Assembly: GCA_951828515.1 (NCBI GenBank)
Contig: OX639992.1
Coordinates: 3,884,217 to 3,948,216 of the forward strand
Length of the DNA stretch: 64,000 nucleotides
Reading direction: 5' to 3'
Origin: an uncultured Poribacteria bacterium
GTDB taxonomy: Bacteria > Poribacteria > WGA-4E > WGA-3G
Under the pieces are notes generated by a model. It was not told the DNA's origin, ran no database searches, and was given only the letters and a program-made list of their open reading frames with translations. This document shows, in pieces, positions 1,771 to 26,015 of this stretch. The position numbers and the translations under genes were made by a program. Within the stretch, counting starts at the first letter, position 1; every line of letters starts with the position of its first letter.

Positions 1771-2410
1771 GGCTTCCTTCCTTTTCTCCTTGATACGGGA
1801 TGCGATTATCATACAATAGATTACACATTAAATCAAGAATTTGTTTTCGGTACGTCAACGTCATTCAGTTTCCTTGTAGGAGGGATCTCCGAATCCCGAC
1901 CTATTTCGTAGAAGCGACAGAAAGAGGAAATAACGAAGGCGCAGGAAACTGACCGTCTCATAGGCCGCGGTGGCACAGGTTAACAACCTATGCTACAAAA
2001 GGTAGCATCCAATCAGAAACCTTTGATTTGTTTAAAATTGTCCAAACTTTTGTATAATTGGGCAATAGGTTTAGGTTGGATTCACGTTAAAATGTTACGA
2101 TAGTGTAACATTTGGTAAGTAACGGTTATTTGCCTAAAACCCAATAGCCATGAGAGTTTATAGACCTTTTTCTTTGTTTTTTCGTTTTGAAAAAAAATAA
2201 TTTGGCGGGAAGTGTAACATTTTTCTGAATGTTCTTGCTGAGGTGATGTTATGTTGGTAGCGTCTGAATCGCGGATTGACGCGGATTTCACAGATTCCGC
2301 GGATTTTTGGGGACCTCTGTGTATCCAGTGTCCTTTGTTGGGCATTGAGTTCCCTATCCATTGCTCACGGGGCATTTCGTCTCAAAATACCGTCAGTGAA
2401 GAGAAACCCC
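1771..2410. other. Gene-free stretch with repeats
   Basis: No convincing coding region. It contains a short repeat at about 1875-1905 (TAGGAGGGATCTCCGAATCC) related to sequences near 43170-43200 and 59558-59580. A perfect 9-bp inverted repeat (AAATGTTAC/GTAACATTT) lies at 2090-2098 and 2105-2113. A reiterated GCGGATT motif runs through about 2271-2310. These look like dispersed intergenic repeats rather than a gene. Confidence 0.5.
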
Positions 2411-2521
2411 CTATTTATAAGACACGACATCCCCCTCTTCCCGAAGTGAGATGTGGAACATCCCGCGCCGCTCGGTCGCCACATACAGTCTGTCGCGGTG
2501 AACGACAAGTGAGAGCACCTT
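2411..2521 (-). pseudogene. 3'-end remnant of an ECF-sigma/beta-propeller gene
   Basis: The minus strand encodes about 36 codons, ending in TAG at 2411-2413, that match the last residues of the intact gene at 17526-20483 almost word for word. Both share the motifs SLVVHRDRLY, ATERRGMFHISL and EGD/AGD before the stop. No matching body of the gene lies upstream, so this is a detached C-terminal fragment. It shows that at least one more copy of the sigma/propeller gene once lay here. Confidence 0.8.
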
Positions 2522-2672
2522 ATTTCTCAGGGTGCTTGATTATCCTTTTCACCCTGTATTTAATTCTCGGTTTTCATTCTCCATAGCGAAAAACCTCAAA
2601 AACCTTTCCACAGTTTCACGCAACTTCGCCAACTTTTAGAGACAAATTCAGCTTTTTTCATTTTTTTTAGAA

Positions 2673-7598: not shown

Positions 7599-9299
7599 AT
7601 GATGTTCGTATGTCCGAAACCTACCACTCATCTACATAAATTCCAGCAAGGCAACCGGATGTACGTCGCTGACCTGAGCCAATGTCTTGTGTTGGAAATT
7701 GATGACATTGTCTGGGAGATTCTGGATCTGTGTCCATCCTTTTCAAGTGAAGAGATCATAGAGCGGCTTGGGAGAAAATATGACAGGGAGTTCGTCATTG
7801 CGGCATTAGATTCGCTGGCGACAATGGAGCAGCAAGGACTTCTTTTTTCAAATCTTGAAAACCGTTCACGGGCGTTAGAGACAGAAACTCCTCGGAAATT
7901 GAAGATCCTTGTCTTGCAAAGGAGTCCTTACGCGGCTGACATCACACTGGCAGCTGGAGGGGTGTCAGTGGCACATCATAATCTCATTAAATCTCTGGAA
8001 GCTTATGCGTCTCTTGACGTGGTAGGTGATCGCGATGAAAGGTTTAATGGGAGTGTACAAGGTATCAGGTTCCCAGTCAACGATAAATCTGCTCTTTTAA
8101 AGTTGATGGGTCGCAATTATGATGGCGTGCTGTTGGATAGTCATCTAAACGATAGGGCTCTTTCTCTCCTACATTGTATTAATGCCCCGTTTGTTGTTCC
8201 GATTCATGCTGCGAGGGGCCACAATAGCGATTGCATTAACACAGGGCTACTCTGGTACGCAGCGATGCGCCCTTATGATGCCTTTCTGGTTCCAACGAAC
8301 TCAGTGCGGGACCTGTATGCTCGGTTTGTCTCTGACAAGGATATTTTTCATACCATACCGTGGGGGGTTGACCATAACAAATTTCATCCATTGGACAAAC
8401 AGGAAGCCAGAAATGAAGTTGCGAAGATGCTCCACGCGCCTCAAATTGCTTCTTCACCGGTTGTTGGTTTCTTCTCAAGATTTCAGCCAGAGAAGGGTGC
8501 CGGGATTTACATAGAAATCGCAAAACGTCTCCCAAACACCTGTTTTCTGATGACTGCGCCGACACTCAATTTCTACGAACATCAGCAACTCCCTCCGAAT
8601 CTGATTTGCGCCCCACAACAACCCAGGGAGCAACTGGCACGACTGATAAATGCTTTTGATGTTTACTGCTTTCCATCAATGGTGGGTGAAGAAACGTTTG
8701 GGCTCGCGCTCTTAGAGGCGATGGCTTGTGGGATACCGCCAGTTGTGCCCCATCTTGATGGACTTCCTGAGGTTGTCGGCGATGCAGGAATTGTTGTGCC
8801 AGCACAGGCTTATGAGGATGAGATTGGGAGTTTCGCTGGAACGGTTTCACCGAAGGCAATGGCGGATGCGGTCAATACCCTTCTCACCGATGAGAAGGCA
8901 AGATTGGCATTGGGACAGAAGGCGAGAGAGAGGGCCCTGACTTTTACGTGGGATAAAACCGCACAGAATGTTATTGCCCTGTTTAGAAGACTGAAAGGAA
9001 TCCAGCAGTTAGAGAACGGATATAAACGGCATTTTGCTATCTCTTTCGCCCCGTATCTTAACAACAGGCGAAGACAGATTGAAAATCGAGCGATATTGAA
9101 CAACATTACCCTCCAAAAGGAGAGACCGCTCATGTGGGATCGCTATGCACAATCCATAGCGGAGGGACTGTCATTGACATTGCTTAGAAGACACACCCGA
9201 CATGAAGTCGAAGCCGTTTTACATCATTTATATGGTCAGGAGAGAGCCGAAGTGATTCTCGAAAAGGTCTTTGGTTTTGAAGAGGCTGTAAACCGATAG
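7599..9299 (+). CDS. GT4 glycosyltransferase with PqqD/RRE-like N-terminus, EX7E intact
   Basis: A 566-residue protein; GAGGAGG precedes the ATG at 7599. Residues about 12-85 resemble the PqqD/RiPP-recognition fold. The pattern is a short strand (MYVADLSQ), a second strand (VLEIDDIVWEIL), then helices ending in MEQQGLLF. Residues about 92-460 are a GT-B glycosyltransferase of family GT4: a VSVAHHN acceptor-side glycine loop, GFFSRFQPEKG, and GEETFGLALLEAMACG carrying an intact EX7E motif. A C-terminal helical piece of about 100 residues, with RRHTRHEVEAVL, is shared with the other three glycosyltransferases here. It probably glycosylates the Cys-rich peptide in the cytoplasm before export, guided by the leader (inference). 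The gene is 12 bp from the next. Confidence 0.82.
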   Translation: MMFVCPKPTTHLHKFQQGNRMYVADLSQCLVLEIDDIVWEILDLCPSFSSEEIIERLGRKYDREFVIAALDSLATMEQQGLLFSNLENRSRALETETPRKLKILVLQRSPYAADITLAAGGVSVAHHNLIKSLEAYASLDVVGDRDERFNGSVQGIRFPVNDKSALLKLMGRNYDGVLLDSHLNDRALSLLHCINAPFVVPIHAARGHNSDCINTGLLWYAAMRPYDAFLVPTNSVRDLYARFVSDKDIFHTIPWGVDHNKFHPLDKQEARNEVAKMLHAPQIASSPVVGFFSRFQPEKGAGIYIEIAKRLPNTCFLMTAPTLNFYEHQQLPPNLICAPQQPREQLARLINAFDVYCFPSMVGEETFGLALLEAMACGIPPVVPHLDGLPEVVGDAGIVVPAQAYEDEIGSFAGTVSPKAMADAVNTLLTDEKARLALGQKARERALTFTWDKTAQNVIALFRRLKGIQQLENGYKRHFAISFAPYLNNRRRQIENRAILNNITLQKERPLMWDRYAQSIAEGLSLTLLRRHTRHEVEAVLHHLYGQERAEVILEKVFGFEEAVNR

Positions 9300-9311
9300 A
9301 GGTAAGTTAAA

Positions 9312-10967
9312 ATGATCCAATTTCCTCGTAATTTGCATAACCTTCATCAATTCAAACGTAATGGTCAGCAATTTGTTGCCGATCTGGATGCGGGTGTTGT
9401 TGTTCCGGTGACTGAAGTTGTCTGTGATGTCTTGAATGTCTGTGGCACCTCAGAGACAGATGCCATTATTGAAACCCTTGCTGATAAATATGGTTCCCGT
9501 TTTAAGATTCTTGAGGCACTCGCTTTTCTCACTAAACTTTCGGAAATGGGGATACTGTTTTCGTCGGATCCATCTGATATTGAAACACCTCAGCGTAATG
9601 AGCGACCGAAAATCTATGTGACACCGGGTGTTTTCGAGAGCAGAGAAACGACCCCTTTCTTATTGAGCATCGCAAATCACAGTCTGATAACAGTGTTGGC
9701 ACAGCATGCGGATGTTTATCTTGCACTGCCTGAAACGGTCAACAATCAGGAAGTTGAAGAGAATTTACAGGTTCAAGGTGTTCAACCGATTTTCTTTAGA
9801 GACAATCGCACATTTTCACCAGCAAAGTTTATTCCGAAGGACTGCGATGGCATCCTCGCTTTAACGCCACTTACCGTAGGCGAACAGGTTTTCCTAAAAT
9901 TTAACACAATTCCGGTTGTCCTCCGTCTGTCTAACGCCGCTTTGATGCGTCATGCAGCGAGAAACAGATCTCTTGAGAGGTGTGCAGCGTTGAGAGATTT
10001 CGATGCCTTTGCGTGTGATGCCTCGTGGACACAGGACTTCTTTTCAGATTTCGTTCCGGATATGCGTGTTTTTCATCATATCCCTTATGGTGTTGATACG
10101 TCTTTTTTCAAACCGATGGATAAAATGAAATGTAAGCACCAGTTGTCTCAAGCACTCGGGAATGAAGAAATTTTGCAGAAACCGTTGGTGGGAGTTGTAC
10201 CAGGACTGAATCCACACGAAACGCTTCGCTTTTTGCGAAAATTACGGTCTGCAAACCCTGATCTTAACTACCTTGTTATTCATTCCAGCCTGATGGATGA
10301 TTTCACAGATGATGGTTGCGTCAACTTCTTTAATATTGCGTCTCAGCAAGACAAAGAGGCGAGTCCTTTCATCTTTAATGCTTTAGACGCATTGGTGTTT
10401 CCGACAATTCTCGGTGCATCACCGCTACTCCTACTTGAGATAGTGGCATGTGGTATTCCAACGGTTATTTGGGGGCATTCCGTCCCTAAAGAGATGTCAG
10501 GTGCTTGCCGATTCGTTCAAGTTGCCCCAAGTCTTTTTGACCCAGTTCAACTACCGGTCAAATCAATATCGCAGGAACTGAAATTTCTCTTTGAAAACCC
10601 TGACGAGCAGAGACGTTTAGGGCAGAAGGGATTAAAAGCCGTTTCAACTTACACATGGGAAGCAGCCATCCAACGAATCCTCAACTTATTTAGAGATCTT
10701 CGCAGTCGTCCGGTGCGCCAATCTAATCCTGCGAAACATCGATTGTTGTTTAAGAAACATTACAATTTGGTATCTGGTGGAATTGAGTCAGAAGCATTGG
10801 AATTATCAAAGGTCCCAAGTTTGGGACGACCTTCTCCGGTTGATGTGGAGCGGGGAATTGCCATGACCCTGCTGGAGGAACATACACCGATGGAGGTTAG
10901 AACTGTACTTCAGTCCATTTGTCAGGAACCCGAACGTGCCGAAAAAATCTTAGAAAATCTTATTTGA
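9312..10967 (+). CDS. GT4-like protein with RRE-like N-terminus, first EX7E Glu missing
   Basis: A 551-residue paralogue of the preceding gene with the same layout: a PqqD/RRE-like domain at about residues 12-85 (QQFVADLDAG to LSEMGILF), a GT-B fold, and a C-terminal helical piece with EEHTPMEVRTVL. In the catalytic segment, GASPLLLLEIVACG keeps the second Glu of EX7E, but a Gly stands where the first Glu should be. The N-terminal acceptor loop is also diverged. It may be a non-catalytic partner of the first enzyme, or use an altered mechanism. The same intact/altered pairing occurs in the second locus (33311 with 31600). The start is ATG 9312 after a GAGG site, 12 bp downstream of the previous stop, so the genes are probably one transcript. 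Confidence 0.8.
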   Translation: MIQFPRNLHNLHQFKRNGQQFVADLDAGVVVPVTEVVCDVLNVCGTSETDAIIETLADKYGSRFKILEALAFLTKLSEMGILFSSDPSDIETPQRNERPKIYVTPGVFESRETTPFLLSIANHSLITVLAQHADVYLALPETVNNQEVEENLQVQGVQPIFFRDNRTFSPAKFIPKDCDGILALTPLTVGEQVFLKFNTIPVVLRLSNAALMRHAARNRSLERCAALRDFDAFACDASWTQDFFSDFVPDMRVFHHIPYGVDTSFFKPMDKMKCKHQLSQALGNEEILQKPLVGVVPGLNPHETLRFLRKLRSANPDLNYLVIHSSLMDDFTDDGCVNFFNIASQQDKEASPFIFNALDALVFPTILGASPLLLLEIVACGIPTVIWGHSVPKEMSGACRFVQVAPSLFDPVQLPVKSISQELKFLFENPDEQRRLGQKGLKAVSTYTWEAAIQRILNLFRDLRSRPVRQSNPAKHRLLFKKHYNLVSGGIESEALELSKVPSLGRPSPVDVERGIAMTLLEEHTPMEVRTVLQSICQEPERAEKILENLI

Positions 10968-11000
10968 AATTGGGGTTTATAGACAGGTCGCAAATTTAAC

Positions 11001-12140
11001 ATGATGCTAAGTTATCAAAATCTATCTATTGTTCTTCTTCTACTCTTTTGTCTGTATGCGACTTATACAGACTTACGAGAAAGAAAAATCAAGAATTATT
11101 GTAGCTACGGTGCCATTTACGCTGGGATTCTATGTCACGTTATCTCCGTCTTGTCAGGGAATAGTCCACTTTTAGGCAGTATAGCGACGCTTCTGGGAGG
11201 TTTCTGCATTGTTCTCGCACTTTATTGGTTCGGTATCTTCGCCGCTGGAGATGCTAAACTCGTTTGGGGTGCATCGCTGCTGATGCCGGTAGGGTTATTG
11301 GGAGAAGCAAACGCGTTCGATCAGTACACACCGATCACCCTCATTATCAATATGTTCGCGCCTTACTGCCTGATTCTTGTAGTGTATCTCTTCATCAAGA
11401 CGAGGCTACAACAGAAATGGCAGGCTTTTATACTCATCTTTCAACAAGAAGACTTTCGTAAACAGATTTTTGAAATGGTATTCGGTCTCATTTTTCTGCT
11501 TGGGCTGCGGCAGCTTGTCACACTCTCACTGGGCGGGTTAGGGATTGAAACGGGGTTTTGGTATCAGTTATTGATCGTGCTGTCTTTGTATTTTACCCTC
11601 AGTTACTATGTAGCAAAATACGGTCTGGAGAAGTTCCGTAACTCTGTTGTCTGTGTAGTGCTAATTGGGTTGATGATCGTCACAACACCTTGGACGCTGA
11701 GTGCTTGGGCGGCATCTTATATCCCATTTTTGAAGATATACCTTGTTTATATTCTTATCTTCTTCTTTGGTAGAAATTTCATTTATAATTTGGATAGCAT
11801 GGTGTTGGGTCGAGAGATAGACATCTCTGATTTAAGAGAGGGAATGGTACCTGCTGAACAGATTGTTAAAACTGAAGGGGACGATGGAGAAGTAACTTAT
11901 AGTAAGGAAGGTTTCGCGCTCCCGAATGTGTTTAACTCGAATATTATTCTTGGGACGTTGCCGGGCGGTGTCTCGAAAGAGAAGGCGGCGGAATTGAAAC
12001 AACTATCAGAGGAGGGCAAATTTGAGGATTTTGAGAACAAAATCCGCATCCAACACTCTTTACGTTTTGCGCCTGTGATCTTTTTAGGTGTTATCTTGAC
12101 TATTCTATGCCGAGGTCCTTTCTTTACGTTTTTTCAGTGA
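11001..12140 (+). CDS. A24-family (prepilin / class III signal) peptidase
   Basis: A 379-residue membrane protein with many hydrophobic helices. It carries both catalytic aspartates of the A24 family: Asp24 in the YTDLRERKIKN segment and Asp84 in FAAGDAKL (GxGD-type, with Ala-Gly-Asp). No N-terminal zinc/methylase domain is present, so it is the short type, as in TadV or the archaeal PibD/EppA enzymes. After the core comes a conserved block, LREGMVPAEQIV, then a soluble part and a last helix with LRFAPVIFLGVILT. Both recall the C-terminal ends of archaeal A24 peptidases. No pilin, ATPase or secretin genes are nearby. The likely substrate is therefore the Cys-rich peptide with its KEDG leader site. 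It is 33 bp after the second glycosyltransferase. Confidence 0.87.
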   Translation: MMLSYQNLSIVLLLLFCLYATYTDLRERKIKNYCSYGAIYAGILCHVISVLSGNSPLLGSIATLLGGFCIVLALYWFGIFAAGDAKLVWGASLLMPVGLLGEANAFDQYTPITLIINMFAPYCLILVVYLFIKTRLQQKWQAFILIFQQEDFRKQIFEMVFGLIFLLGLRQLVTLSLGGLGIETGFWYQLLIVLSLYFTLSYYVAKYGLEKFRNSVVCVVLIGLMIVTTPWTLSAWAASYIPFLKIYLVYILIFFFGRNFIYNLDSMVLGREIDISDLREGMVPAEQIVKTEGDDGEVTYSKEGFALPNVFNSNIILGTLPGGVSKEKAAELKQLSEEGKFEDFENKIRIQHSLRFAPVIFLGVILTILCRGPFFTFFQ

Positions 12141-12268
12141 GTAGATGTTCTTTCATGAGGAATCATCAGAAGGGTTTTCCGGTTTCAGCGATATTATTAA
12201 CACGATTCAGAGAAGAATAAATAGCACAAGGCGTTATTCACATGAAAAAATGAAAAAGGAGTTATAGC

Positions 12269-12577
12269 ATGTCGAGATCGAGAATTTTTTATATTTTCAC
12301 AATGCGTGAGAAAAAGAAAAAGAAGGATTTGAAGAAATTCCTTGAAACGCAATGGCTTCCAGTTCTACGAAATGCCCCCGGCTGCTTAGAGGTTGAACTG
12401 CTGGATACCTATCAAGATCGAGCTGGATATTGTGTGTCAGAACTTTGGGAAAATAGGGAGGTACACCTCAAAAGCACGGCGAAGTTGTGGCGTGAGACCC
12501 ATACGGATCTCCAGCAAAAAGTTACGGATTACGCCACGATTGAATTTCTCTGGAATTGTATGATTTTAGACGTTTAA
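12269..12577 (+). CDS. ABM-type dimeric alpha/beta-barrel protein (putative)
   Basis: A 102-residue protein with AAGGAG before the ATG. The sequence APGCLEVELLDT, then SELWENREVHLKSTAKLW, follows the antibiotic-biosynthesis-monooxygenase (ABM) fold: a strand, an Asp/Tyr-rich turn, a W-x-N/S helix and a final strand. Members are small cofactor-free oxygenases, heme-degrading enzymes or simple dimers with no known reaction. It is the last plus-strand gene of this block and is about 130 bp after the A24 gene. It may belong to the peptide locus, but the second locus lacks a counterpart, so that link is weak. Confidence 0.6.
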   Translation: MSRSRIFYIFTMREKKKKKDLKKFLETQWLPVLRNAPGCLEVELLDTYQDRAGYCVSELWENREVHLKSTAKLWRETHTDLQQKVTDYATIEFLWNCMILDV

Positions 12578-12638
12578 GCGTCAGATATATTACGCTACCC
12601 ACAGAAGTCTCAGACAAGATGCGTTTCGCTTTGCTTTG

Positions 12639-13568
12639 TTAACGTTGCGTGCCAAAGTCTCGGGTATCACGGTTTCTGAGGTAACCCAACTGCTTAAGTC
12701 GCCCCCATGTGGTGGCGAGTTTTCTTGCTGCTTCGACTGCAAGTGGGAGACCAGTTTCCGCACCGCCTATACCGACCAAATGATATGCGTTGCCTGATGC
12801 ATCTGAGAATTCCCGTGTTCCGTCCGGCTCATCAAAATGCCACAACGCAACCGTCTTCGCGTCATTTTTGAACTTGTCGTCTGGCATAAAATCTTTTTTG
12901 CCGACATCGTAACGAGCCTCCGTTGAGATGCGAACCTCATCAATATATCCAGTGAAGGAATCCCAAAACCATAGTTTGTTCGGACCAACAGGCACCTCAA
13001 GTATTTTTCCAAACCCTCCAAGCACGAAGTCCAGTGGACGCGAAGGATCGTGTCCGAGAGGTAGATCTTGTTGCATTGTCTTTCCGAAATCATTGACGAT
13101 CATTGTTGTCTGAGGCCCATTTGACTGATAAGCGATGTGGTGCCATTGGTTCGGCGCAAGCGGGATCGGGAAAGATAATCTCTGAGCACCGTCTCCCCCA
13201 GTATAAGCACTCATTAGCAAGATTAGGTCCCCCTTCGGGGGCTCGATATTTCGTATATTAGCCAGATCATTTACGAACGGTTGAAACTCATCGTTCACGA
13301 TAATCATACTCACTTGTTGATGGAGTATCGTCACTAACGTGTTCCCGTTGCTGGGTGGTGTGGTGGGATATATCCATGCTTCGACGGTGAACTCTTCCGT
13401 GCCGTTCGGTAAAAGCCTACCAAAGGTTTTAAAGTCTAATACGGCGTGGTCGTCGCCCCCATCGAGGACTAAATAGTTTCCACCTGCGGGTGAAGCGGGT
13501 GGAAACGCTTTAGCACTCAGCGGAATTAATATAAGTAAAAGACATATGGGGAGGTGTCGGTATATCAT
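12639..13568 (-). CDS. Secreted LamG/concanavalin-like domain protein
   Basis: A 309-residue paralogue of the protein at 3804-4646. The signal peptide (MIYRHLP, a Leu/Ile-rich core, AKA) is followed by NYLVLDG, FTVEAWIYPTTPP, NQWHHIAYQ, TGYIDEVRIS and ALWHFDEPDGT, the usual LamG strand pattern. The C-terminal tail of about 35 residues ends in a Lys/Arg-rich stretch with no known motif. It is predicted to be extracellular and to bind glycans or proteins. GGAG precedes the start. Directly upstream lies the broken sigma gene, so the pair LamG plus sigma/propeller seems to have been copied as a unit (compare 3804-4897). Confidence 0.84.
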   Translation of the reverse strand: MIYRHLPICLLLILIPLSAKAFPPASPAGGNYLVLDGGDDHAVLDFKTFGRLLPNGTEEFTVEAWIYPTTPPSNGNTLVTILHQQVSMIIVNDEFQPFVNDLANIRNIEPPKGDLILLMSAYTGGDGAQRLSFPIPLAPNQWHHIAYQSNGPQTTMIVNDFGKTMQQDLPLGHDPSRPLDFVLGGFGKILEVPVGPNKLWFWDSFTGYIDEVRISTEARYDVGKKDFMPDDKFKNDAKTVALWHFDEPDGTREFSDASGNAYHLVGIGGAETGLPLAVEAARKLATTWGRLKQLGYLRNRDTRDFGTQR

Positions 13569-13779
13569 TTTTTCTCTCCTTTTGATCCGAAATATAGCGT
13601 TTATAAGACGTTCTCTGCATCTCTACCATGGGGACATCCTCCAGGGATCCTGTTAAAGATTTGTTGTCTTGTAACCAAGTATTGCAGAGTCGATTCGTGA
13701 TGACATAAAGCCAGCCAGAAAACTGACTGAGGTCCTTTAACTTTGGGAGGTGCTTGTATACTCGAACAAAGGTGTCCTA

Positions 13780-15019
13780 GTAGTGAGTCAAGTTTCTATT
13801 GACAGTTATTATGAAAAGTGGTATGCTGCGTGTCCCTGTCATAAATCCTTTCAGTTGGAGTCTGTGATGCCAGCGAAACGATACCCTGTTCTTCTTAACT
13901 CAGAGCAACGAGCGTCTCTGATAACTCTGACGACTTCAGGGACGGCCTCTGCGAGAAAACTCACGCACGCCCGGATCTTGTTGAAAGCAGACGCGGGCGA
14001 GTTTGGACCCGCTTTCCTCGATAAAGCGATAAAAGCAGCTCTTGATGTCTCCCTGTCTACTATTCAGCGCGTGCGTAAAACCTTTGTGCTTGAAGGTCTC
14101 GAAGCCGCCCTGCTCCCGAGAAGACCCTCTCAGGGGTCAAGACCAAAAAAGTTTGATGGCGAAAAAGAGGCACATCTCATCGCCTTGGTCTGTTCGGATC
14201 CACCAGAGGGGCATGCCTGCTGGACGCTGCGGCTGTTAGCTGAGAAAATGGTGGAGCTTGAGCATTTTTCAAGTATTTCTCATGAAAGCATCCGACAGGT
14301 GCTAAAAAAAACGAACTGCGTCCGTGGCGCAAGCAGCAGTGGTGTATCCCAGCAGAAGCTTCGGAAGCGTTCGTGACAGCGATGGAAGGCATCTTAGATC
14401 TCTATGAGCGCCCTGAAGACCCGAGGTATCCTGTGGTGTGTGTTGATGAGACGAGTAAACAACACCTTCAGGAAATGCGTCCACCGCTGCCGCTGATGCC
14501 GGGGAAACCTTACCGATATGATCCTGAATATAAACGCAATGGCGTCAGCAATCTGTTTATGATTTTCGCACCCTTTTTCGGGTTTCGACATGTCGAAGTC
14601 ACTGACCAACGCACGAGTCTGGATTTCGCACGTATCTGTCGAGATATCGTCGATGTGCATTTTCCAGACGCAGAAAAGATTCTGCTGGTTTGCGATAATC
14701 TTAATACACACAAGCCAGGTTCGTTGTATAAAGCGTTTGATACCCAAGAGGCTCAGCGGATCGCTGAAAAACTTGAGTTTCACTATACCCCGAAGCACGG
14801 GAGTTGGTTGAACATCGCCGAAATAGAGTTTTCCGTCCTCAGTCGACAGTGTCTTTGTAGGCGTATCCCGGATCAAGAGACCCTCAAACGCGAGGTTCAG
14901 GCATGGAAACCAAACCAGAGAAATCAGCAACGTGCCACGGTCAAGTGGCGGTTTACGACCGACGATGCACGGATCAAACTCAACAAACTATATCCTTCAA
15001 CAGAAGGTTGACACACTAC
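13780..15019 (+). mobile_element. IS630-family insertion sequence
   Basis: A 1240-bp element bounded by TA on both sides (13778-13779 and 15020-15021), the target duplication typical of IS630/Tc1. Its ends, GTAGTGAGTCAAG at left and the complement GTAGTGTGTCAAC at right, form imperfect inverted repeats. Comparison with the intact gene (GTGTCCTGCGTAATCTC) shows exactly where it entered. Confidence 0.9.
13867..15011 (+). CDS. IS630-family transposase, -1 frameshift
   Basis: Two overlapping frames together make about 381 residues. Frame one starts at ATG 13867 (MPAKRYPVLL; an open extension to 13750 lies outside the element). It carries the helix-turn-helix DNA-binding part. A run of eight A at 14304-14311 allows a -1 slip, joining VLKK to NELRPWRKQQW and giving the continuous DDE transposase. 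The catalytic residues are in VCVDETSKQ (first Asp), LLVCDNLNTHK (second Asp) and LNIAEIEFS (Glu). Programmed slippage on A-runs is known in IS630, so the gene is probably functional rather than broken. Without slippage the first frame ends at 14376. Confidence 0.88.
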
Positions 15020-15239
15020 TAGGTAATCTCTTCGGTATGATGAAAATTACCAATCCTCCGCCAAGCCAAAGCGTGGGCACCTTTTTGATGCTTGCGGACT
15101 AATGCAGTGAATGCTTTGCTGTTGCCTGACAAATCTTGTGGATGAGTTGAACATCACCTTCTACTATTAGAATTCTCCATCATGAACAGATTTGGGAAAA
15201 CGTCCATTGTGGGTGCCGCAAATTCCCTAGAGTTGGAAG

Positions 15240-15475
15240 TACAGTGACCTTTCGCTTTCCTCGCAAATAGTATACCAAACACAATAGCAAACCTAAACCC
15301 TTAATTGATTGTTTCTATTAAAGACTGCATTTTTTCACCAAAAACGTGCATAATCTGAAAAAATTGAAAAAATAGTTCAAGTTCAGATTTTTCAAATTCC
15401 CATTGAAATTTCGTTTCTCGCCTACCTCCACTGCTTTCAAGTTTTCCACTGATTTTCGTCATTTTTCAATGAGGA
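15240..15475 (-). repeat. Duplicated promoter region plus phosphohexomutase 3' remnant
   Basis: The minus strand matches 20600-20830: the promoter region with GGTATACT, the 38-bp motif (15318-15355), and then about 100 bp equal to the 3' end of the phosphohexomutase gene (KLES/KLKA...GxKRxTKF). It is a displaced copy fused to a glycosyltransferase remnant at about 15470. Confidence 0.75.
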
Positions 15476-15705
15476 GGTCCTCGTCCGCTAATACCTCCGT
15501 CAAAGCCGTTTCAAGTTGATCATATCTATTTCTTCCCACGCTATATACGCAGGACCGTATCGTCCCTGTGTCCGGTTCATACCGACGACAGAAAATCGGC
15601 GGGAATGGAGTTCCTTCTGTCCTAAAATCCTCAGTTTTTCGCTGAAGACTCTCTTCAAACATTTTGACGAGCTCTCGCGCAGCGTTCTTACTGTCCGAGA
15701 TATCC
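15459..15705 (-). pseudogene. C-terminal remnant of RRE-like glycosyltransferase
   Basis: The frame encodes FCRRYEPDTGTIRS and YSVGRNRYDQLETALTEVLA, matching the C-terminal region of the glycosyltransferase at 31600-33300 (FCRRYNPGSGT, YRLGIHRYDCLQAALIEMLA). After LAD the sequence jumps into the 3' end of a phosphohexomutase (DLLIEK) and stops. The matching upstream half lies at 17022-17245, beyond the CotH gene. Confidence 0.8.
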
Positions 15706-17028
15706 GATATGTGCATCTATCCACTCCAGTCGGTCCTGCAACCATGTTTTCAACTGGTGTACCTCTTGTTCATAGGTGGACGGATTGGATTGAGGATTGC
15801 CGAGAACGCTGACCCCAAGCACTGGCCATCTCTCAAAGTTCCTTGATTGTGCCTTGGATAGATATTCAGCAGTTCGATCAATCTCCTCCAGGAGCTTTGA
15901 AGTCGTAAGTTCATCTTTCCGAAGAGCTCGCCACCTCTTAACGAGTTTTCGTTTGAAGTTTTCGTCTGTTAGTAATCGATCCCACCAAAAGGGGACGGGG
16001 TTTGTATGAATCAACCACCCATCCGTTTCCCAACCGTTATTAAAATATGCATTGCCCATTGATAAGTTGAAATCCCAGATGGGTCCCATTTTCAGTTTGG
16101 TGTTTCTATCTTTGTACATATAGGTGCTGTTCCGGAATCCATCTATGTTTCTGAAAAGTTCATTGATGATGAAATGATCGATAAAAGTATCCGTATGAAT
16201 ATACTCGACATATTCACCGCGATCTGGGGCTTTTAACGACGATTCAAATGCGCTCATATAGTTCCGAATCCACGCTTTTTGGGCAGCGGATATTTGGTTT
16301 CCTTTCGGATATACATGAATCAACCGTGTGCGGTAATCCGTAAGAAAGTACCTGTCATTAAGGTCAATTTTGTCGATTTTCAGGATATAGCCCCCCGTGA
16401 TTTCCGACGGTTTCTCCTGTGTCGACTTCAGCGATTGAATATTGACCCGGTTTTTCCCGCGCTTAATCTTTTCCATCAGTAAGTAAACACCGACATAGTG
16501 CTTTTGTTTAATCTTTGTATCCCCTGAATCATTAAGAAATACTTCGACAAACTTTGTTCTGCTTGTGTACCTACCCATCCGATTACTGAACTCGTACGCC
16601 AGGTAATTCCGCATAAGGGTTTTATCCGAATAGGGACCATTCAAAATCCAGTCGGATTCCGCTGGAAGTTGCAGCAGCGATACATCTTTATCATTGCCAC
16701 TATCGTCCTGAATTTCAAAACCGTACTGCTTTTTCGGAAACGCCTGTGAAGTTTTCCCTCGGACCTCTATACCGATTTTCCCATCGAAATGGACGTGTGG
16801 GCTATTCAAGGCGTTTCTGCCGCCAGATTCATCGTAAATAATCTTCATCCGCGCAGAAATTTTGGGTTCGTCAGAAATCCATTTCCCAAAGGTATCAATA
16901 AGAACAAGCGGTAAAATCGATGTCTTCTCCTTGATGGCAAAGCAACTTGTAGGAATGGATAACAGAACACCGCTCAGAAGCAAAAGTGTGATTTTTTTTA
17001 CAGAGGCATTTATAGTAGATTTTAGCAT
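15688..17028 (-). CDS. CotH-family (spore-coat H kinase-like) secreted protein
   Basis: A 446-residue protein with an N-terminal signal or anchor (lysines, LLLLSGVLLS, then a Cys at about residue 29 that could be a lipobox). The body matches the CotH family, an atypical protein-kinase fold. It has an early VRGKTSQAFPKKQYGFE, DWILNGPYSDKTLMRNYLAYE, GGYILKIDK, and the metal-binding GPIWDFNLSMGN. Family members phosphorylate Ser on coat proteins in Bacillus; others are cell-surface proteins of unknown role. It sits inside a split glycosyltransferase gene: its start overlaps the upstream remnant by a few bases and its end overlaps the downstream remnant. It may modify a secreted protein, possibly one of the nearby peptides (speculative). 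The ribosome-binding site is weak. Confidence 0.82.
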   Translation of the reverse strand: MLKSTINASVKKITLLLLSGVLLSIPTSCFAIKEKTSILPLVLIDTFGKWISDEPKISARMKIIYDESGGRNALNSPHVHFDGKIGIEVRGKTSQAFPKKQYGFEIQDDSGNDKDVSLLQLPAESDWILNGPYSDKTLMRNYLAYEFSNRMGRYTSRTKFVEVFLNDSGDTKIKQKHYVGVYLLMEKIKRGKNRVNIQSLKSTQEKPSEITGGYILKIDKIDLNDRYFLTDYRTRLIHVYPKGNQISAAQKAWIRNYMSAFESSLKAPDRGEYVEYIHTDTFIDHFIINELFRNIDGFRNSTYMYKDRNTKLKMGPIWDFNLSMGNAYFNNGWETDGWLIHTNPVPFWWDRLLTDENFKRKLVKRWRALRKDELTTSKLLEEIDRTAEYLSKAQSRNFERWPVLGVSVLGNPQSNPSTYEQEVHQLKTWLQDRLEWIDAHIGYLGQ

Positions 17029-17245
17029 TTATCTTGCGCTTCGATTAACGTGTTAATCTGTTCTGATATGGAGTCTGTTAGAATCACAAACTTACCGGTC
17101 ATGTCCTCTCGGGTGAGCGGGACCAATATTAGATACGTCGCCAAGTCTTCAAGTAGCTCTGTGGAATTGAGAGCGAGCCCTGGAACACCGTACGCAAGTG
17201 CCTCAAGCACCATGGAAAAGGATATGCCAATAACCGTTGGAAGCT
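17022..17245 (-). pseudogene. Central remnant of RRE-like glycosyltransferase
   Basis: Minus-strand codons read SFSMVLEALAYGVPGLAL, equal to the catalytic segment of the glycosyltransferase at 31600-33300 (PLSIVLEAMAYGAP), then SEQINTLIEAQ matching its SNTINQWLKP region. The residue at the first EX7E position is Gly, so this was an altered-type enzyme. The rest of its 3' part lies at 15459-15705. Confidence 0.78.
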
Positions 17246-17249
17246 GATA

Positions 17250-17480
17250 TGGTCGCTACTGACATCCAAACACAATAACGAACCGAAACCCTTAATTGTT
17301 GATTGTTTCTCTTAAAGACTGCATTTTTCGACAAAAAACGTGCATAATCAAAAAATAGTTCAAATTCACATTTTTCAAATTCCCGCCGAAATTTCGTTTC
17401 TCTCCTACCGCCACTGCTTTCAAGTTTTTCAATGATTTTCGTCATTTTTCAATGAGGTGGATTTCGTGCATAATCTAAAA
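17250..17480 (-). repeat. Displaced phosphohexomutase 3' end and promoter motif
   Basis: A third copy of the sequence found at 20600-20830: the EKLES-GG-RRETKF coding remnant (about 17370-17450) and the 38-bp motif (17312-17350). The promoter-like GTTATTGTGTTTGG breaks off at about 17260 and joins the glycosyltransferase remnant. A partial second motif (GATTATGCACGAAATCC) is at 17463-17480. Confidence 0.7.
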
Positions 17481-17525
17481 AAATGAAAAAATCAGGAAAA
17501 AAGTCTTTCTGAATGAATAAAGCCC

Positions 17526-20483
17526 CTATCTACGAGACACGGCATCCCCCGCTTCCGCAAGTGAGATATGGAACATCCCGCGCCGCTCGGTCGCCGCATA
17601 CAGCCTGTCTCGGTGAACGACAAGCGAGAGAACTTTACCGGGAACGCCCGGCGAGACCTGTTTCCATTCGCCATGCGTATCTAAGTGGTAAATCCCTGTA
17701 TCCCCCGCACCATAAAGCGTAGCACCCTCCACAGCGAATCTGTCTATACGAACTGCATCGGTGATCACGCGCCAGTGTGAACCTGTCTGTGAAGCTAAGA
17801 CCCCTGTGTCTGTCGCGACGTAAACCGTTGACCCCGAAAAGATGATCTCCGTGAAAGCGGTAAACGAGAACGGAAGGGACGACGTGATGTCCTTCCAACT
17901 GTTCCCGTCATCCAGCGACTGAAACAACTTGCCATCCCGCTTCCCGACGTAGATGGTGTCCCCTGAAACCGCTAACTTAAACCCTTTATCCAATGTTCCA
18001 TCAGGTGGTGTACCCGTGTCTACCAATCCCGTGTCTGTCCACGCTGTATCGCCGGGGTGCCTTATGAAAAGTTTCCGTTTATATTCGGCATAAAACGTAT
18101 CGCCACTGACTGCAAACGCACCAACTTTCACATGTTCTCTATGACGCAATGTGCCTACCAAGTTATCCTCGCCTCCATGTCCTTTCTCTTCACTATGTGT
18201 TGACACCTTAATGGATGGAGCATCCACTTCAAATATGGGCACCTCTTGAACCGGGACGATCCTATTACCATCTGCTGACAAACGGAAAACGCGCAAATTG
18301 TCTTTTTCAGATGAAATTACATAAAGGGTGTTCCGGGCAACCGTTAACCTTGAATGAGAAAAAATATTGATGTGAGGCTGTCTCTTCTCCATAGGACTGA
18401 GTGCAACATCACTAACGTCAATCCGAACGGTTTTCCACGACTCGCCGCCGTCTGTTGATTGGACAAGGGCATCACTGGTATGTGCGTAGAGTCTGTTATG
18501 GAGCACAATCAAATTCAGGATTCCGGTTCCTACAATTCCATCCATGAACAGATGCCATGATTCACCAGCATCAGTCGTCCGATAAACACCGAATTTCCCG
18601 GCTTTATAAAATGTGTTCTCATTCCCTGCCACAAATGGAAAACCGCTGAGTACAAACGAATCCCCGTCAAATCCGAGGTCTATCCACGTCTGTCCACCAT
18701 TTCTTGATAGAAAGCGAGTTGCGGTTTGTGCCAAGATCGTCTTGCCAACGACCAATAAACTTATCCCAGATGGTGCTATTACAGGACGCAATCCACCTAT
18801 CGGCGTTATTTCAGTCCATGACGCTCCCAAGTCACTTGAGTGAAAAGCCCTGCCCAAACCTGAATTGTCGTCATACATCTGATGCATGACTTCCGTTGGT
18901 TCTGATCCAATCTGTTTTAAGTCCCGAAAATCAGGTCCTGTTCCAACATAGAGACTCCCTTCGGCGGCGACTAAGGAATGGACGGAGCCTGGCACATCTT
19001 CAAGTAATCGTTGCCACGTGCCTGAATCCAGTCGATAGAGACCTTTGTCCGTGCCAGCAAACACCCTGTCTCCGACCACAACCATCGCAGAAATTGTCCC
19101 ACCCATCAATCCATCGTCAAGGAGAACCCATTGACCACCTATATCTGTAGAGCGGAACACCCCTTTATCTCGGAGGGCAAGATACATCGTAGAGTGCTCG
19201 CGGGAACTGCTGTTTTGTGCTTCATTGACGATTACTAACTCAATGGCATGTCCCCCTGGACGGGAGCAGAGTGCTTCCCATGTCTCACCATCGTCGGTTG
19301 AGGCAAATACCGTATCTTTGAAGACAATATAGAGCATCCCCTCATGTGCTGCCATGGGCATCCAAGAACCTTCAATCGGTAAGCTGCTGTTTACGAGTGT
19401 CCATGGCGGTGTGTCTGGACTTAGTCTGTAGATACCTGTTGGTGAAAGCGTGTAAATCGTCCCTGCATCAGTCGCGAATATATCAAAAACAGGACCGCCT
19501 TGTGGTCCCGCTGTCTGCGCCCACTGTGATGTGGAGAGTTGAATTGCCCCAACCTCTGCATGAGAGGCTACATCCGATTCAGAGATCTGCACACCAGTTC
19601 CTCTGCTGTTACGGGTTGTGACAGCACGCCCTGCCTGATTTCGGACAGCCGGTTTTGCATCAATGTTGAGAATGACAGGTGCGTCAATAATTTCAACCAT
19701 CGGTTCGGACTGTGCCTCGAAACTATACGGTTTCTGAAATCGGACGAGGTATTGGTTGCTCACACCCAACAGGAACATTACCACTAAAATTGCCGCCGCA
19801 CCAAAACCTATCCACGGTAGGAACGGCTTCCCCGCTGAAGGAGACACGGGTTTCATATCCGCAACTTTCCGCACGATGTTCTGTGTGAGACTCTCAGGTA
19901 ATTGGACACTCCCGAGCATCTCTTGAACTAAGAGTTCCTCGTCCTGTTTTAAACGCTCTCGCGCCCGCTGTAGCCGACTCGTAATCGTATTCACCGATAC
20001 ACCCAAAAACTTGCCAATCTCTTTTGCCGTCATTTCGCCGAGATAGTAGAGCGTCATGACGGTGCGTTCGCTCTCCGGTAGTTTTGCCAGAAGCTTCTTG
20101 ACGAGTTCCTGGTGATGTGAGTGGGACTCTTCTTCGTGTTGTGTCGATACATAGTGTTCGTAAAATGCTTTTTCCACTTCTGCCATGGGGACCTCCTCCA
20201 GCGATTCCATCAAAGATTTGTTCTCTCGGAGCCAGGTATTACAGAGCCGAGCTGTAGTGACATAAAGCCACCCAGAAAACTGATTGGGATCCTTTAACTT
20301 TGAGAGGTGTTTGTAGACGCGAAGGAAAGTGTCCTGCGTAATCTCTTCAGCGATGTGAAAATCCCCAACTTTTCGCCAAGCCAGTGCATGAACACTCTTC
20401 TGATGCTTTCGGACTAATGCCGTGAATGCTTCATCATCGCCCGCCAAAATCTTATCAATGAGTTGAACATCATCTTCTACCAT
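17526..20483 (-). CDS. ECF sigma factor fused to membrane helix and extracellular beta-propeller
   Basis: A 985-residue fusion. Residues 1-185 are a full sigma factor: region 2 around 20-90 (EEITQDTFLRVYKHLSKL, SGWLYVTTARLCNTWLR) and region 4 around 130-185 (LPESERTVMTLYYLGEMTAKEIGKFLGVS and a TSRLQRARERL recognition helix). One membrane helix follows at about 222-242. The remaining ~700 residues are BNR/sortilin-like propeller repeats with the S-T-D-x-G-x-x-W signature many times (STDDGETWEAL, STDGGESWKTV, TTDAGESWHLF). The layout suggests an outside sensor directly tied to an inside transcription factor. Fusions of this kind occur in Poribacteria and Planctomycetes, but their signal is unknown. 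Remnants of related genes lie at 2411, 4685 and 13618. The upstream region has the 38-bp motif and a TATACT box. Confidence 0.85.
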   Translation of the reverse strand: MVEDDVQLIDKILAGDDEAFTALVRKHQKSVHALAWRKVGDFHIAEEITQDTFLRVYKHLSKLKDPNQFSGWLYVTTARLCNTWLRENKSLMESLEEVPMAEVEKAFYEHYVSTQHEEESHSHHQELVKKLLAKLPESERTVMTLYYLGEMTAKEIGKFLGVSVNTITSRLQRARERLKQDEELLVQEMLGSVQLPESLTQNIVRKVADMKPVSPSAGKPFLPWIGFGAAAILVVMFLLGVSNQYLVRFQKPYSFEAQSEPMVEIIDAPVILNIDAKPAVRNQAGRAVTTRNSRGTGVQISESDVASHAEVGAIQLSTSQWAQTAGPQGGPVFDIFATDAGTIYTLSPTGIYRLSPDTPPWTLVNSSLPIEGSWMPMAAHEGMLYIVFKDTVFASTDDGETWEALCSRPGGHAIELVIVNEAQNSSSREHSTMYLALRDKGVFRSTDIGGQWVLLDDGLMGGTISAMVVVGDRVFAGTDKGLYRLDSGTWQRLLEDVPGSVHSLVAAEGSLYVGTGPDFRDLKQIGSEPTEVMHQMYDDNSGLGRAFHSSDLGASWTEITPIGGLRPVIAPSGISLLVVGKTILAQTATRFLSRNGGQTWIDLGFDGDSFVLSGFPFVAGNENTFYKAGKFGVYRTTDAGESWHLFMDGIVGTGILNLIVLHNRLYAHTSDALVQSTDGGESWKTVRIDVSDVALSPMEKRQPHINIFSHSRLTVARNTLYVISSEKDNLRVFRLSADGNRIVPVQEVPIFEVDAPSIKVSTHSEEKGHGGEDNLVGTLRHREHVKVGAFAVSGDTFYAEYKRKLFIRHPGDTAWTDTGLVDTGTPPDGTLDKGFKLAVSGDTIYVGKRDGKLFQSLDDGNSWKDITSSLPFSFTAFTEIIFSGSTVYVATDTGVLASQTGSHWRVITDAVRIDRFAVEGATLYGAGDTGIYHLDTHGEWKQVSPGVPGKVLSLVVHRDRLYAATERRGMFHISLAEAGDAVSRR

Positions 20484-20657
20484 GAGAATTCTCCATCATG
20501 AATGAACAGATCGGGGCATGCTAACATCTTCTTGAATTTTGCTTGCAACGGGTTTTCACGTGTCGGCATGAGACGGAGTTTTGCACGTCTCGTAAAGAGT
20601 ATACCAGACACAATTGTAAACCGAAACCCGTAAATTTAAACTGTTTGATTGTTTCTA

Positions 20658-20695
20658 TTAAAGACTCTCTATTTCGGCAAAAAACGTGCATAATC
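20658..20695 (-). promoter_or_regulatory. Conserved 38-bp motif upstream of sigma/propeller gene
   Basis: GATTATGCACG...GAGAGTCTTTAA on the minus strand. About 60 bp further downstream, toward the gene, are TTTACA and TATACT-like boxes (about 20600-20625), which are also preserved before the broken copy at 15240-15290. This conservation beside two paralogues supports a regulatory role. Confidence 0.55.
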
Positions 20696-20721
20696 TAAAA
20701 AAAATAGTTCAAATTCATATA

Positions 20722-22194
20722 TCATGCAGATTTTTCAGATTCCCAGCGGAATTTTGTTTGGCGTTTCCCTCCGATACTCTCAAGTTTTTCGCTGATTCTC
20801 ATTGTCTTTTCAATGAGAAGGCCCTCGTCGCCAATCGTTTCAACGTTGAGCCGCAGCAACGGTTCGGTGTTCGATTCTCGGAGATTGAACCGCCAATTTC
20901 CGTGTCCGGACCTATTATCAAGTCGTCGGAGACTTGTGTGAAATCTAACCGATAAACCGTCAACGGGCATTTCCATACAGGGATGGTTCCCCAAAGCGTA
21001 TATTTCTTGTTGGACGACTCCCATAGCATTTCGCATGTGATGAGTTTCAAAAGAAAAGTTAATTTCACCTGAGACCGGATATACTGCTCGGAGACGATCC
21101 ACAGATTCGGCAAGGGATGTTCTGTTCTGGCTGAGGTATTCGAGAACAAGTAGTAGCGGGATCATTCCATTATCAGCATAGAAATTCTCTCTGAAGTAAT
21201 AGTGTCCGCTCGCCTCTCCGGCGAAGAGTGCGTCGGTCTCCTGCATGTGGGATTTGATAAACGAGTGTCCGCATCGGTTGAGAAGCGGTGTGCCATTCGC
21301 TGAGACAACAGCGTTCTCTACCGCCCAGACGGCTCTTGGATCAAAGATGACGGTCCCTTCTCCTTTCTCTCGAAGGAGTTTTTCGGCAAGTAACGCTGTA
21401 ATGTAGCATCCTTCGACGAACACTCCATTTTCATCAAAGAAGAAACATCTGTCGGCATCTGCGTCCCATGCGACTGCCAAATCTGCTTTTGTCCGTTTAA
21501 CCGCCATCGTTGTTAATTCCCGGTTCTCTGGTCTTAGCGGATCAGGTCTGCCAGCGGGAATCTTGGAGAACGTGCCATCGGGTTGGGTAAACAACCGCTC
21601 GCAGATCTGGATGAGGGTTCCCGCTAACAGACGTTCGGCAATCTGCCCAGCAAGCCCACTATTGGCATTGATGACAATCCGCTTGCTGGAGAGCTGCTGT
21701 AAGTCTGTAAATGAATTTAGGTGCTTCAGGTAGGCATCCAGAAATGGAACAGGTTCAGGGATTGCGCGACCGTGTTTTTTTTGCTTTCCAGATAGGGTGA
21801 CCTTTTCGCTGGCATTGCGAAGGTCAAGGAGACCGGTATCGGCGGATATCGGTGTGGCATGCCGGCGGACGAGTTTCATACCGTTATATTCAGCTGGATT
21901 GTGAGAGGCGGAGATGACAATGCCACCATCTGTTTGGTAGTGCACGACGGCGAAATAGAGCATGTCGGTCGAAATCTGACCGAGGTTGAGGATATTAACG
22001 CCTGAGTCTATAAGTCCTTCGGCAACTTTTTGGAACAGCATCGGTGAGCTTTTTCGGACATCGTGTCCCAAAGCAACGATTTTTGGTTGGAAGCGATCGA
22101 CAAAGGCGTGGGCGATTCTATAAAAATCAATCGCTTCAAAGTCAACACCGAAAATGCCCCGAATATCGTATGCTCTAAATATGTCAAGATTCAT
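20722..22194 (-). CDS. Phosphomannomutase / phosphoglucomutase
   Basis: A 490-residue alpha-D-phosphohexomutase. The start is ATG 22192-22194, which overlaps the end of the upstream nucleotidyltransferase by 11 bp; the longer open frame is only a shadow. Motifs in order: FRAYDIRGIFG at the N-terminus, GGIVISASHNPAEYNGMK (phosphoserine loop), DADADRCFFFDE (metal loop), GEASGHYYF (sugar loop) and a C-terminal FNLRESNTEPLLRLNVE (phosphate loop). It interconverts hexose-6- and hexose-1-phosphates, feeding NDP-sugar synthesis. With the adjacent nucleotidyltransferase it could make the sugar donor for the four RRE-like glycosyltransferases (inference). Its 3' end has been copied twice into the 15-17 kb mosaic. 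Confidence 0.92.
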   Translation of the reverse strand: MNLDIFRAYDIRGIFGVDFEAIDFYRIAHAFVDRFQPKIVALGHDVRKSSPMLFQKVAEGLIDSGVNILNLGQISTDMLYFAVVHYQTDGGIVISASHNPAEYNGMKLVRRHATPISADTGLLDLRNASEKVTLSGKQKKHGRAIPEPVPFLDAYLKHLNSFTDLQQLSSKRIVINANSGLAGQIAERLLAGTLIQICERLFTQPDGTFSKIPAGRPDPLRPENRELTTMAVKRTKADLAVAWDADADRCFFFDENGVFVEGCYITALLAEKLLREKGEGTVIFDPRAVWAVENAVVSANGTPLLNRCGHSFIKSHMQETDALFAGEASGHYYFRENFYADNGMIPLLLVLEYLSQNRTSLAESVDRLRAVYPVSGEINFSFETHHMRNAMGVVQQEIYALGNHPCMEMPVDGLSVRFHTSLRRLDNRSGHGNWRFNLRESNTEPLLRLNVETIGDEGLLIEKTMRISEKLESIGGKRQTKFRWESEKSA

Positions 22195-23064: not shown

Positions 23065-23328
23065 TCATTCGCACTGACTGTGCCATTCTCCTATACAGGT
23101 TGATGCACTCCACTCGTCGCACCAAACTGCGCAATACTCACCTTCCCCACAGTCACTACCCCCAGGAGTACACAATAAATGTGCCTGAACGGGAGGCGTA
23201 ACAATTGCCTGCGCGAGCAACACACTTGCGCTTGCTACACCCAAAGTCAATGGGGATTTAACACCAACACGCCCTTCCTCGGATTTGAGGAAATGACGAA
23301 TTCTATTGCGAACTGAGTTGTTTTTCAT
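23065..23328 (-). CDS. Cys-rich secreted peptide precursor (locus 2, peptide D)
   Basis: An 87-residue precursor with AAAGGAG before the ATG. The leader has a basic start (MKNNSVRNRIRHF), S-E-E-G at 16-19, a conserved VGVKSPLTLGV, a hydrophobic stretch, and VQA as a possible signal-peptidase I site. The core has six cysteines spaced 6-5-3-7-7, unlike its neighbours. It is the last peptide gene before the nucleotidyltransferase. The conserved leader with a changed core is typical of modified peptide families. A24 cleavage is expected after Gly19. A weak trace of a glycosyltransferase 3' end lies upstream. The activity is unknown. Confidence 0.8.
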   Translation of the reverse strand: MKNNSVRNRIRHFLKSEEGRVGVKSPLTLGVASASVLLAQAIVTPPVQAHLLCTPGGSDCGEGEYCAVWCDEWSASTCIGEWHSQCE

Positions 23329-23711: not shown

Positions 23712-23895
23712 GGCACAAATGCCGGGGCGCATTGTAGCAAAAGCCACCGCGCCCTGACTTTTCCTGAGATTGCCTCAGTTTGAAATACAAGCCCCTACTC
23801 CATAATCCTAAGGAGCCTGCTCGACATTCATGCCTTGATGTTTAGCCACCAATGCACGTTCCTACGCTGCATATGTGGGGAGGATTGGGACATTG
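23705..23895. repeat. ~190-bp repeat copy A (3' region of peptide gene)
   Basis: Nearly identical to 25450-25640. It covers the last codons of the peptide gene and its downstream region, including a GGGCGC...GCGCCC hairpin and CTGAG-GCAAT-CTCAG on the minus strand, which could act as terminator or RNA stabiliser. A shorter, diverged version lies at about 31290-31360. Confidence 0.7.
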
Positions 23896-24063
23896 CCAGT
23901 CATGTTGGCATGGACATGCCGTAGCGGATGTTGGTCCGATGATTGCTTGTGCCAGGAAAATACCTCCAGTCACAACTCCAAGTGTGAGCGGAGCCTTGAC
24001 ACTTACTTTGCCATCCTCAGACGCGAGGAATTCGCGGATTTTGCCACGAAGGTTATTTTTCAT
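23842..24063 (-). CDS. Cys-rich secreted peptide precursor (locus 2, peptide C)
   Basis: A 73-residue precursor, almost the same leader as peptides A and B: MKNNLRGKIREF, S-E-D-G at 15-18, then KVSVKAPLTLGV and a hydrophobic run to about residue 43. ATA at 47-49 is a possible signal-peptidase I site. The core has Cys50 plus the shared spacing C52-x5-C58-x6-C65-x4-C70 and ends CIGG. The upstream ribosome site is weaker (GATAGGAAA) than in peptides A, B and D. The upstream 100 bp are a remnant of a glycosyltransferase 3' end, and a TolB remnant follows downstream, so this is a copied peptide module. Confidence 0.82.
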   Translation of the reverse strand: MKNNLRGKIREFLASEDGKVSVKAPLTLGVVTGGIFLAQAIIGPTSATACPCQHDWQCPNPPHICSVGTCIGG

Positions 24064-24084: not shown

Positions 24085-24192
24085 GGTGCTTTTATGCCAG
24101 CGAGATTGATTTCCCAACGCTGGTTGAGAAATCCATTTCCAAGGCGAATTATTTCACTATAGGAGTAGAGCTCTCCCTTCGGAAATGCTTGA
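24085..24192 (-). pseudogene. Glycosyltransferase 3'-end remnant upstream of peptide C
   Basis: Minus-strand sequence reads KHFRRESSTPIV, a stop, then FALEMDFSTSVGKSIS, which aligns with the C-terminus of the glycosyltransferase at 31600 (KHFQGKGFTSV, FVLEMAFPTNVGKSILSE). The in-frame stop shows it is dead coding sequence now serving as the peptide leader region. Confidence 0.75.
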
Positions 24193-24273
24193 AAACAAAT
24201 ACAACCTCAGCAGCTCTAAGATTTTGAATAACATCACTGCTAAAGTATTTTCAAGGTGATTAAATCTAAAGCC

Positions 24274-25263: not shown

Positions 25264-25594
25264 AAAAATCCCTCCGAAATTTAGGATAGATACGTTAACC
25301 CGATAATCTACCATTAAAGGGCGGATACGTTGATATTCTCATTCAATTCATCGCCCCATTCCTAATTCTTTTCAATATCTATCCCTACTCCAACATCTGA
25401 CTGAATCACTTTGCCACACCTATCTTTCAAACTTACTTTTTCTAATGTTCAAAAACACATGAGCGGCACAAATGCCAGGGCGCATTGTGGCAAAAGCCAC
25501 CACACCCTGACTTTTCCTGAGATTGCCTCAGTTTGAAATACAAGCCCCTACTTTACAATCCTAAGGAGCCTGCTCGACATTCGCGCCTTGATGT
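25264..25594. other. Intergenic stretch between peptide B and TolB
   Basis: No gene. The half nearer the peptide (25450-25594) is part of the ~190-bp repeat that also follows peptide C. The rest is AT-rich without recognisable features, apart from the TolB ribosome-binding site at its left end. Confidence 0.5.
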
Positions 25595-25837: not shown

Positions 25838-25940
25838 TGCCTCCATTCCGGCGAGATTGATTTCCCAACTGAAATTGAGAAACCCATTTCCAGAGCGAAT
25901 ACTATCGCTACGGGAGTGAAGCCCTCCCCCTGGACATGCT
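25838..25940 (-). pseudogene. Glycosyltransferase 3'-end remnant upstream of peptide B
   Basis: In one open minus-strand frame the sequence reads KHVQGEGFTPVAIVF, then ALEMGFSISVGKSISPE, aligning codon by codon with the end of the glycosyltransferase at 31600. The rest of that gene is absent. Together with the remnants before peptides C and D it shows that the peptide was copied with the tail of the gene before it. Confidence 0.8.
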
Positions 25941-26015
25941 TTCTAATGGCTTTTCAAAAAGTTCATCATTCTTGTTGGTTATTTGAATGATGTTTATCCA
26001 ATTTGTGACCTGTAA

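Follow-up and report, generated by a model that had tools for sequence, protein, structure and literature searches.

A CotH-family gene, probably relocated, in a mosaic of broken genes at the end of a glycosyltransferase/peptide cluster of Poribacteria

Introduction

An intact gene of the CotH family stands between two pieces of glycosyltransferase (GT) sequence in the genome of an uncultured Poribacteria bacterium, immediately behind a cluster of GT and small-peptide genes. This arrangement raises the question of whether a kinase gene was inserted into one peptide-modifying GT gene, a tempting reading that our results remove, or whether it arrived there by another route. In this work, we examined the window, i.e., the whole stretch of 64,000 nucleotides analysed (genome G000), and compared it with relatives, including a second species that shares the same location of CotH (G030). 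A literature search found no paper on this locus, judged by title and abstract opening. Taken together, the comparisons document a case in Poribacteria of a gene that has probably relocated and left its ancestral site vacant.

Results

Structure of the CotH gene and its junctions

The features on which the analysis is based are the following, in window coordinates:

265-1812 (264-2059 in the comparison with G034): FGGY-kinase gene
2393..2522, minus strand: sigma-BNR 3' end lying close to the FGGY-kinase gene, 94.7% identical (108/114) to the 3' end of the G034 sigma-BNR gene
13587..13771, minus strand: further piece of the broken sigma-BNR gene, beyond the IS element
13777..15012, plus strand: IS630-type element inside the broken sigma-BNR gene, with ORFs 13750-14376 and 14373-15011 and HTH and DDE_3 domains
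15019..15275, minus strand: intergenic region and 5' piece of the broken second sigma-BNR gene
15275..15486, minus strand: second copy of the manB 3' end with the intergenic region, likewise decayed
15483..15698, minus strand: GT_B fragment (~residues 454-522 of the 565-aa G069 protein), its end fused to manB 3'-end sequence
15688..17028, minus strand: intact CotH-family ORF of 446 aa (ORF list, Pfam PF08757, DNA comparison with orthologues)
17025..17249, minus strand: GT_A fragment (~residues 370-440 of the 554-aa G018 protein) with a reading frame that stops at 17022
17266..17460, minus strand: upstream of the GT_A fragment, a decayed copy comprising the manB 3' end and the intergenic region between manB and sigma-BNR
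17526..20483, minus strand: intact sigma-BNR gene (sigma-70 domains and BNR-like repeats), the last of the GT/peptide cluster, behind which the mosaic begins

In the Pfam scan the CotH ORF belonged clearly to PF08757, with residues 87-437 covering profile positions 1-322 of 322 (E 1.8e-61; 208.9 bits against a curated cut-off of 23.8). On its upstream side the GT-like frame reaches its stop at 17022, 7 nt inside the CotH ORF, while downstream GT-like sequence restarts at ~15704-15698 and stops near 15483; by ORF coordinates, the overlaps with the flanking ORFs amount to 7 nt upstream and 29 nt downstream. The first-pass annotation, made from the sequence alone, had described an intact CotH-like gene that fits the gap and overlaps both GT pieces, and this description was confirmed.

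At the DNA level, similarity to orthologues extends at most from ~17000 to 15702-15689, so that the first ~10 CotH codons would be new or junction sequence. Similarity began at orthologue codon 5-6 in two of the seven orthologue rows tried (G028 and G031) and only at nt 153-167 in the other five; it ends 0-5 nt short of the stop codon in three orthologues with short tails. The comparison with these seven rows revealed none of the former intergenic sequence beside the moved gene, and no promoter for CotH stands out (5 sites on both strands vs 4.7 in shuffles).

Properties of the predicted CotH protein

The AlphaFold2 model of the protein (mean pLDDT 72.7; less reliable near the active site, at residues 294-300 and 320-334) found its best PDB matches in the Bacillus cereus CotH kinase structures 5jda and 5jd9 (E 1e-14; TM 0.66 and 0.64 by target length), followed by HipA-type kinases at E 2e-4 and weaker; the predicted fold is that of a CotH kinase. 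Residues D296 and D319 show a spacing of 23, as do D228 and D251, the key aspartates of B. subtilis CotH named in PMC7821199. Their equivalence was drawn by combining the residues named there with an alignment to 5jd9 (sequence-based E 0.32), and the aspartate pattern is kept in 30 of 31 rows, G071 being the exception.

The CotH copies of G000 and G030 are 99% identical and differ by 9 silent codon changes and 4 replacements (dN 0.004 and dS 0.032, a ratio that rests on 13 changed codons). Further, G000 departs from 4 of the 143 columns that do not vary across 29 other rows, and when five other rows were left out in turn between 1 and 15 columns deviated. These are weak signs of purifying selection in the aligned sequences; with a low dN relative to dS and few deviating columns, CotH is probably still a working protein.

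The usual CotH site and its loss

A CotH orthologue was found in 22 of the 38 genomes of the genus, G000 included. Of the 45 genomes that gave a match, 18 contributed long CotH neighbourhoods; among the 17 other than that of the window, moxR lies immediately or one gene downstream of CotH in 12, a sulfatase lies directly upstream in 3 more, and the remaining two (G047 and G071) differ. The usual site is sulfatase - CotH - moxR - DUF58. Both flanks of this site are present in G000 and G030 at ~75-85% DNA identity, and CotH is missing between them; a CotH remnant was sought there and rejected, with only short chance-level matches. The copy in the mosaic is the only one of this orthologue in G000, and its location is common to G030. 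The first-pass suggestion that a gene was captured by the locus is thereby borne out, as CotH is gone from between sulfatase and moxR and stands in the mosaic at the end of the GT/peptide cluster. Two longer frames with CotH domains (849 and 773 aa) are located elsewhere, at G000:C1:4849452-4850456 and 4184637-4185566. Among the matches listed in genome_contigs, the six nearest named orthologues belong to Candidatus Poribacteria MAGs (65-68%).

A moxR-DUF58 DNA tree of 28 genomes placed G000 and G030 within a seven-species clade (100/100). In six of these seven species the sulfatase is followed by moxR after ~270-830 bp with no CotH match; the contig of G012, another member of the clade with an incomplete assembly, ends 225 bp upstream of moxR. 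Apart from G000 and G030, the five species of the clade gave no CotH match anywhere in their genomes, that of G012 being incomplete. Outside the clade, G009 retains ~16 CotH codons at the usual site.

We take from this distribution that CotH probably disappeared from its old site in the clade's common ancestor. A later lateral regain by G000 and G030 appears, on the sequence comparisons, to be modestly favoured over relocation inside the lineage. The latter, in which CotH was copied to a new site and lost at the old one without lateral transfer, is a real possibility to which we assign clearly less than even chances. It agrees with the CotH divergence within the genus (71-75%), which is also expected under vertical descent, and with a topology test in which a clade of all genus rows was not rejected (p 0.33). 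Against it, the same test rejected (p 0.022) the grouping with G021, G024 and G035 that the moxR-DUF58 tree predicts, a group chosen after both trees had been seen, and the other five clade species have no CotH match. The block is also ~99% identical between G000 and G030, yet other patches of the region are equally so. The CotH protein tree places both genomes, weakly supported (89/92), between G071 and all remaining rows. With respect to viral carriage, no relative was found in viral_contigs.

Origin of the two GT fragments

Each fragment covers only ~70-75 of the ~545-600 residues of a complete GT, and on its outer side each forms a junction with manB 3'-end sequence. Sixty relatives were searched with each fragment, and both were compared with the full proteins of 6 GT_A, 10 GT_B and 13 other loci, as well as with the window's own GTs. 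The upstream fragment displayed 54-73% identity to all six GT_A proteins, against which the downstream fragment gave nothing meaningful (a single match at E 37). Conversely, the downstream fragment displayed 59-70% identity to all ten GT_B proteins, which matched the upstream fragment at just 25-44% over 25-70 residues. No listed gene among the 60 genomes matches both fragments well, the matches of the downstream fragment showing 24-45% to the upstream one; one exception-like stretch, 24 residues at 62.5% in a G026 protein, was observed in the full-protein comparison.

A survey of 14 loci from 12 genomes (6 GT_A, 8 GT_B) revealed the two subfamilies in separate loci. All eight GT_B loci carry an A24-like peptidase, a cytochrome/DsbA-like protein and a precursor-like peptide, with manB and sigma-BNR each present in six of the eight over the length extracted. 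The gene following GT_A encodes ~540 aa in all six GT_A loci (transglutaminase-like in G018); three of these loci also carry a methyltransferase, manC and manB at ~68-73%, and GT_A and GT_B loci share related genes. A residual GT_A operon in G000 was discarded as a candidate, the transglutaminase-like GT_A neighbour giving one weak partial match in G000 and none in G030.

By sequence comparison, the two fragments derive from two different genes of two GT subfamilies. The first-pass annotation had seen a single GT remnant, split, with CotH lodged inside, and had itself named an origin of the pieces from different genes as the observation that would overturn this view; the subfamily assignment, with separate loci in relatives, is that observation. 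The insertion of CotH into a single GT gene, perhaps an A/B hybrid from an earlier recombination between paralogues, is accordingly unlikely. The fragments do point in one direction, and in the GT family only ~14 codons separate their aligned ends, a closeness that by our own estimate would arise by chance in roughly 3-5% of cases and that leaves room for a hybrid GT interrupted by CotH; nevertheless, the two differ in subfamily and locus, none of the listed genes is a good match to both, and their outer ends are likewise broken. A further reading, which we consider very unlikely as a whole, is that CotH travelled nearly bare, from its first few codons to its last few, and was placed between segments of two GT paralogues that correspond closely in position, through a repeat-driven exchange at these GT clusters that swaps ORFs as cassettes; if so, the clusters would offer a system for studying gene swaps. 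Rather than an insertion into one gene, the fragments of two different GT genes and the presence of CotH elsewhere in relatives point to a moved gene, and CotH is probably a relocated copy of a genus-common gene captured in a mosaic of broken genes.

Relationship with the GT/peptide cluster

The co-occurrence of CotH and GT genes was assessed by tblastn, with cut-offs of E 1e-5 (long CotH neighbourhoods), E 1e-8 (genome_contigs) and E 1e-3 (GT loci). GTs of this family were found in none of the 17 other long CotH neighbourhoods and in none of 80 CotH loci of genome_contigs (best 80 of 224), and were absent from 28 of 29 short CotH loci, partly from the same genomes as the long set, with G030 as the sole exception. 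CotH, in turn, was found in none of 17 GT loci, which discards it as a native neighbour of GT_A or GT_B. Across the loci examined, the two co-occur in G000 and G030 only, and a peptide-modifying role is therefore unsupported beyond position. The proposal of a new modifying enzyme for a secreted peptide, advanced in the first-pass annotation together with a search for CotH next to such GTs elsewhere, finds no recurrent pairing to stand on, since that search returned none but G030; the "RRE" label given to the GTs is that annotation's own, and a Pfam scan of four intact GTs returned GT domains only.

The recruitment of CotH to the cluster as a kinase phosphorylating secreted peptides would suit its position, which adjoins the cluster and shares the strand of sigma-BNR, its intactness and its predicted kinase fold, but is highly improbable given this restricted co-occurrence and the decayed sequence that separates CotH from the cluster. 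Most likely, CotH works as a putative CotH-type protein kinase, exported by an N-terminal signal and independent of the GT/peptide cluster.

Several observations were made on the cluster itself. Small Cys-containing peptides with a shared leader-like N-terminus are encoded in the intact GT cluster at 23065-23328 and 23842-24063, and a similar peptide occurs in all eight GT_B loci of relatives. Two further places carry sequence resembling the C-terminal tail of the GT encoded at 31600-33324: 25846-25953, upstream of a TolB-like gene (24274-25314), and 24104-24211, upstream of the precursor-like peptide gene (23842-24063). Elsewhere in the genome, the GT/peptide cluster is duplicated in tandem at G000:C1:558000-597000 (L015 and L016), and both copies of the first GT seem to share the same frameshift near residue 460. 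The C-terminal 400 residues of sigma-BNR gave 16 matches in G000 and 8-19 in seven relatives, some of these being two pieces of one gene; several of the sigma-70/BNR paralogues close GT/peptide clusters.

The surrounding region in other genomes

An additional sigma-BNR piece perhaps lies at 4746-4906. In G034 the orthologous cluster adjoins the FGGY-kinase gene, and the ~15-kb segment found in between in the window is not there apart from short matches; this genome is the only example without the segment, and its interval holds a run of 83 N, a gap that may hide sequence, so the comparison is not clean. The FGGY match was absent from the stretch of G016 that was compared. The IS630-type element of the window is absent from the equivalent spot in G030; its transposase consists of two overlapping ORFs in both genomes (window 13750-15011; L046 7757-8913), at different insertion points, and may use a frameshift. 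A short intergenic element (~ATTATGCAC...ATGC(G/A)GTC..TAATA) recurs, by eye, before several genes; it was noted before moxR (L143 and L144) and in the manB - sigma-BNR intergenic copies of the window.

When positions 8844-21468 were compared with the corresponding G030 locus (L046), identity alternated in patches of ~82-95% and 99-100%, as if the two species had exchanged DNA by recombination. An exchange confined to the CotH block was ruled out by this patchiness, which extends across the whole region (82-100%). Each of four features, from the sigma-BNR piece through the GT_A fragment, is 99.0-99.6% identical between both genomes. That the junctions are an assembly artefact, which the repetitive surroundings might suggest, can practically be dismissed, as the G000 genome is one contig of 5.85 Mb and the separate assembly of G030 has identical junctions around CotH (97.8% over 2,385 aligned columns), the same structure there making an assembly error unlikely.

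Discussion

Our results are best explained by an unremarkable relocation of a gene, in which lateral transfer probably took part. The mosaic would have arisen as copies of the cluster recombined repeatedly with one another and with parts of other operons. CotH, which stands in it as an almost bare ORF stripped of its former flanking sequence, would have been captured there, and selection would have preserved this ORF while its neighbours decayed. The locus also illustrates that the GT/peptide clusters of Poribacteria have been visibly reshuffled.

With respect to known systems, both GT fragments of the window are pieces of the same GT family as the GTs of neighbouring peptide clusters, but are short and come from two subfamilies. 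Compared with the genus orthologue beside sulfatase and moxR-DUF58, the window CotH is 71-75% identical and of similar length; in contrast, it stands in a mosaic of broken genes, while the usual site has no CotH. Finally, CotH of Bacillus cereus (PF08757; PDB 5JD9, 5JDA) resembles the window protein in family model, predicted fold and spacing of the two key aspartates, with 15% identity over the structural alignment; the window CotH differs in its N-terminal signal (lipoprotein-like in orthologues by eye), in having no spore-coat context, and in displaying WDFN where B. cereus has WDYD.
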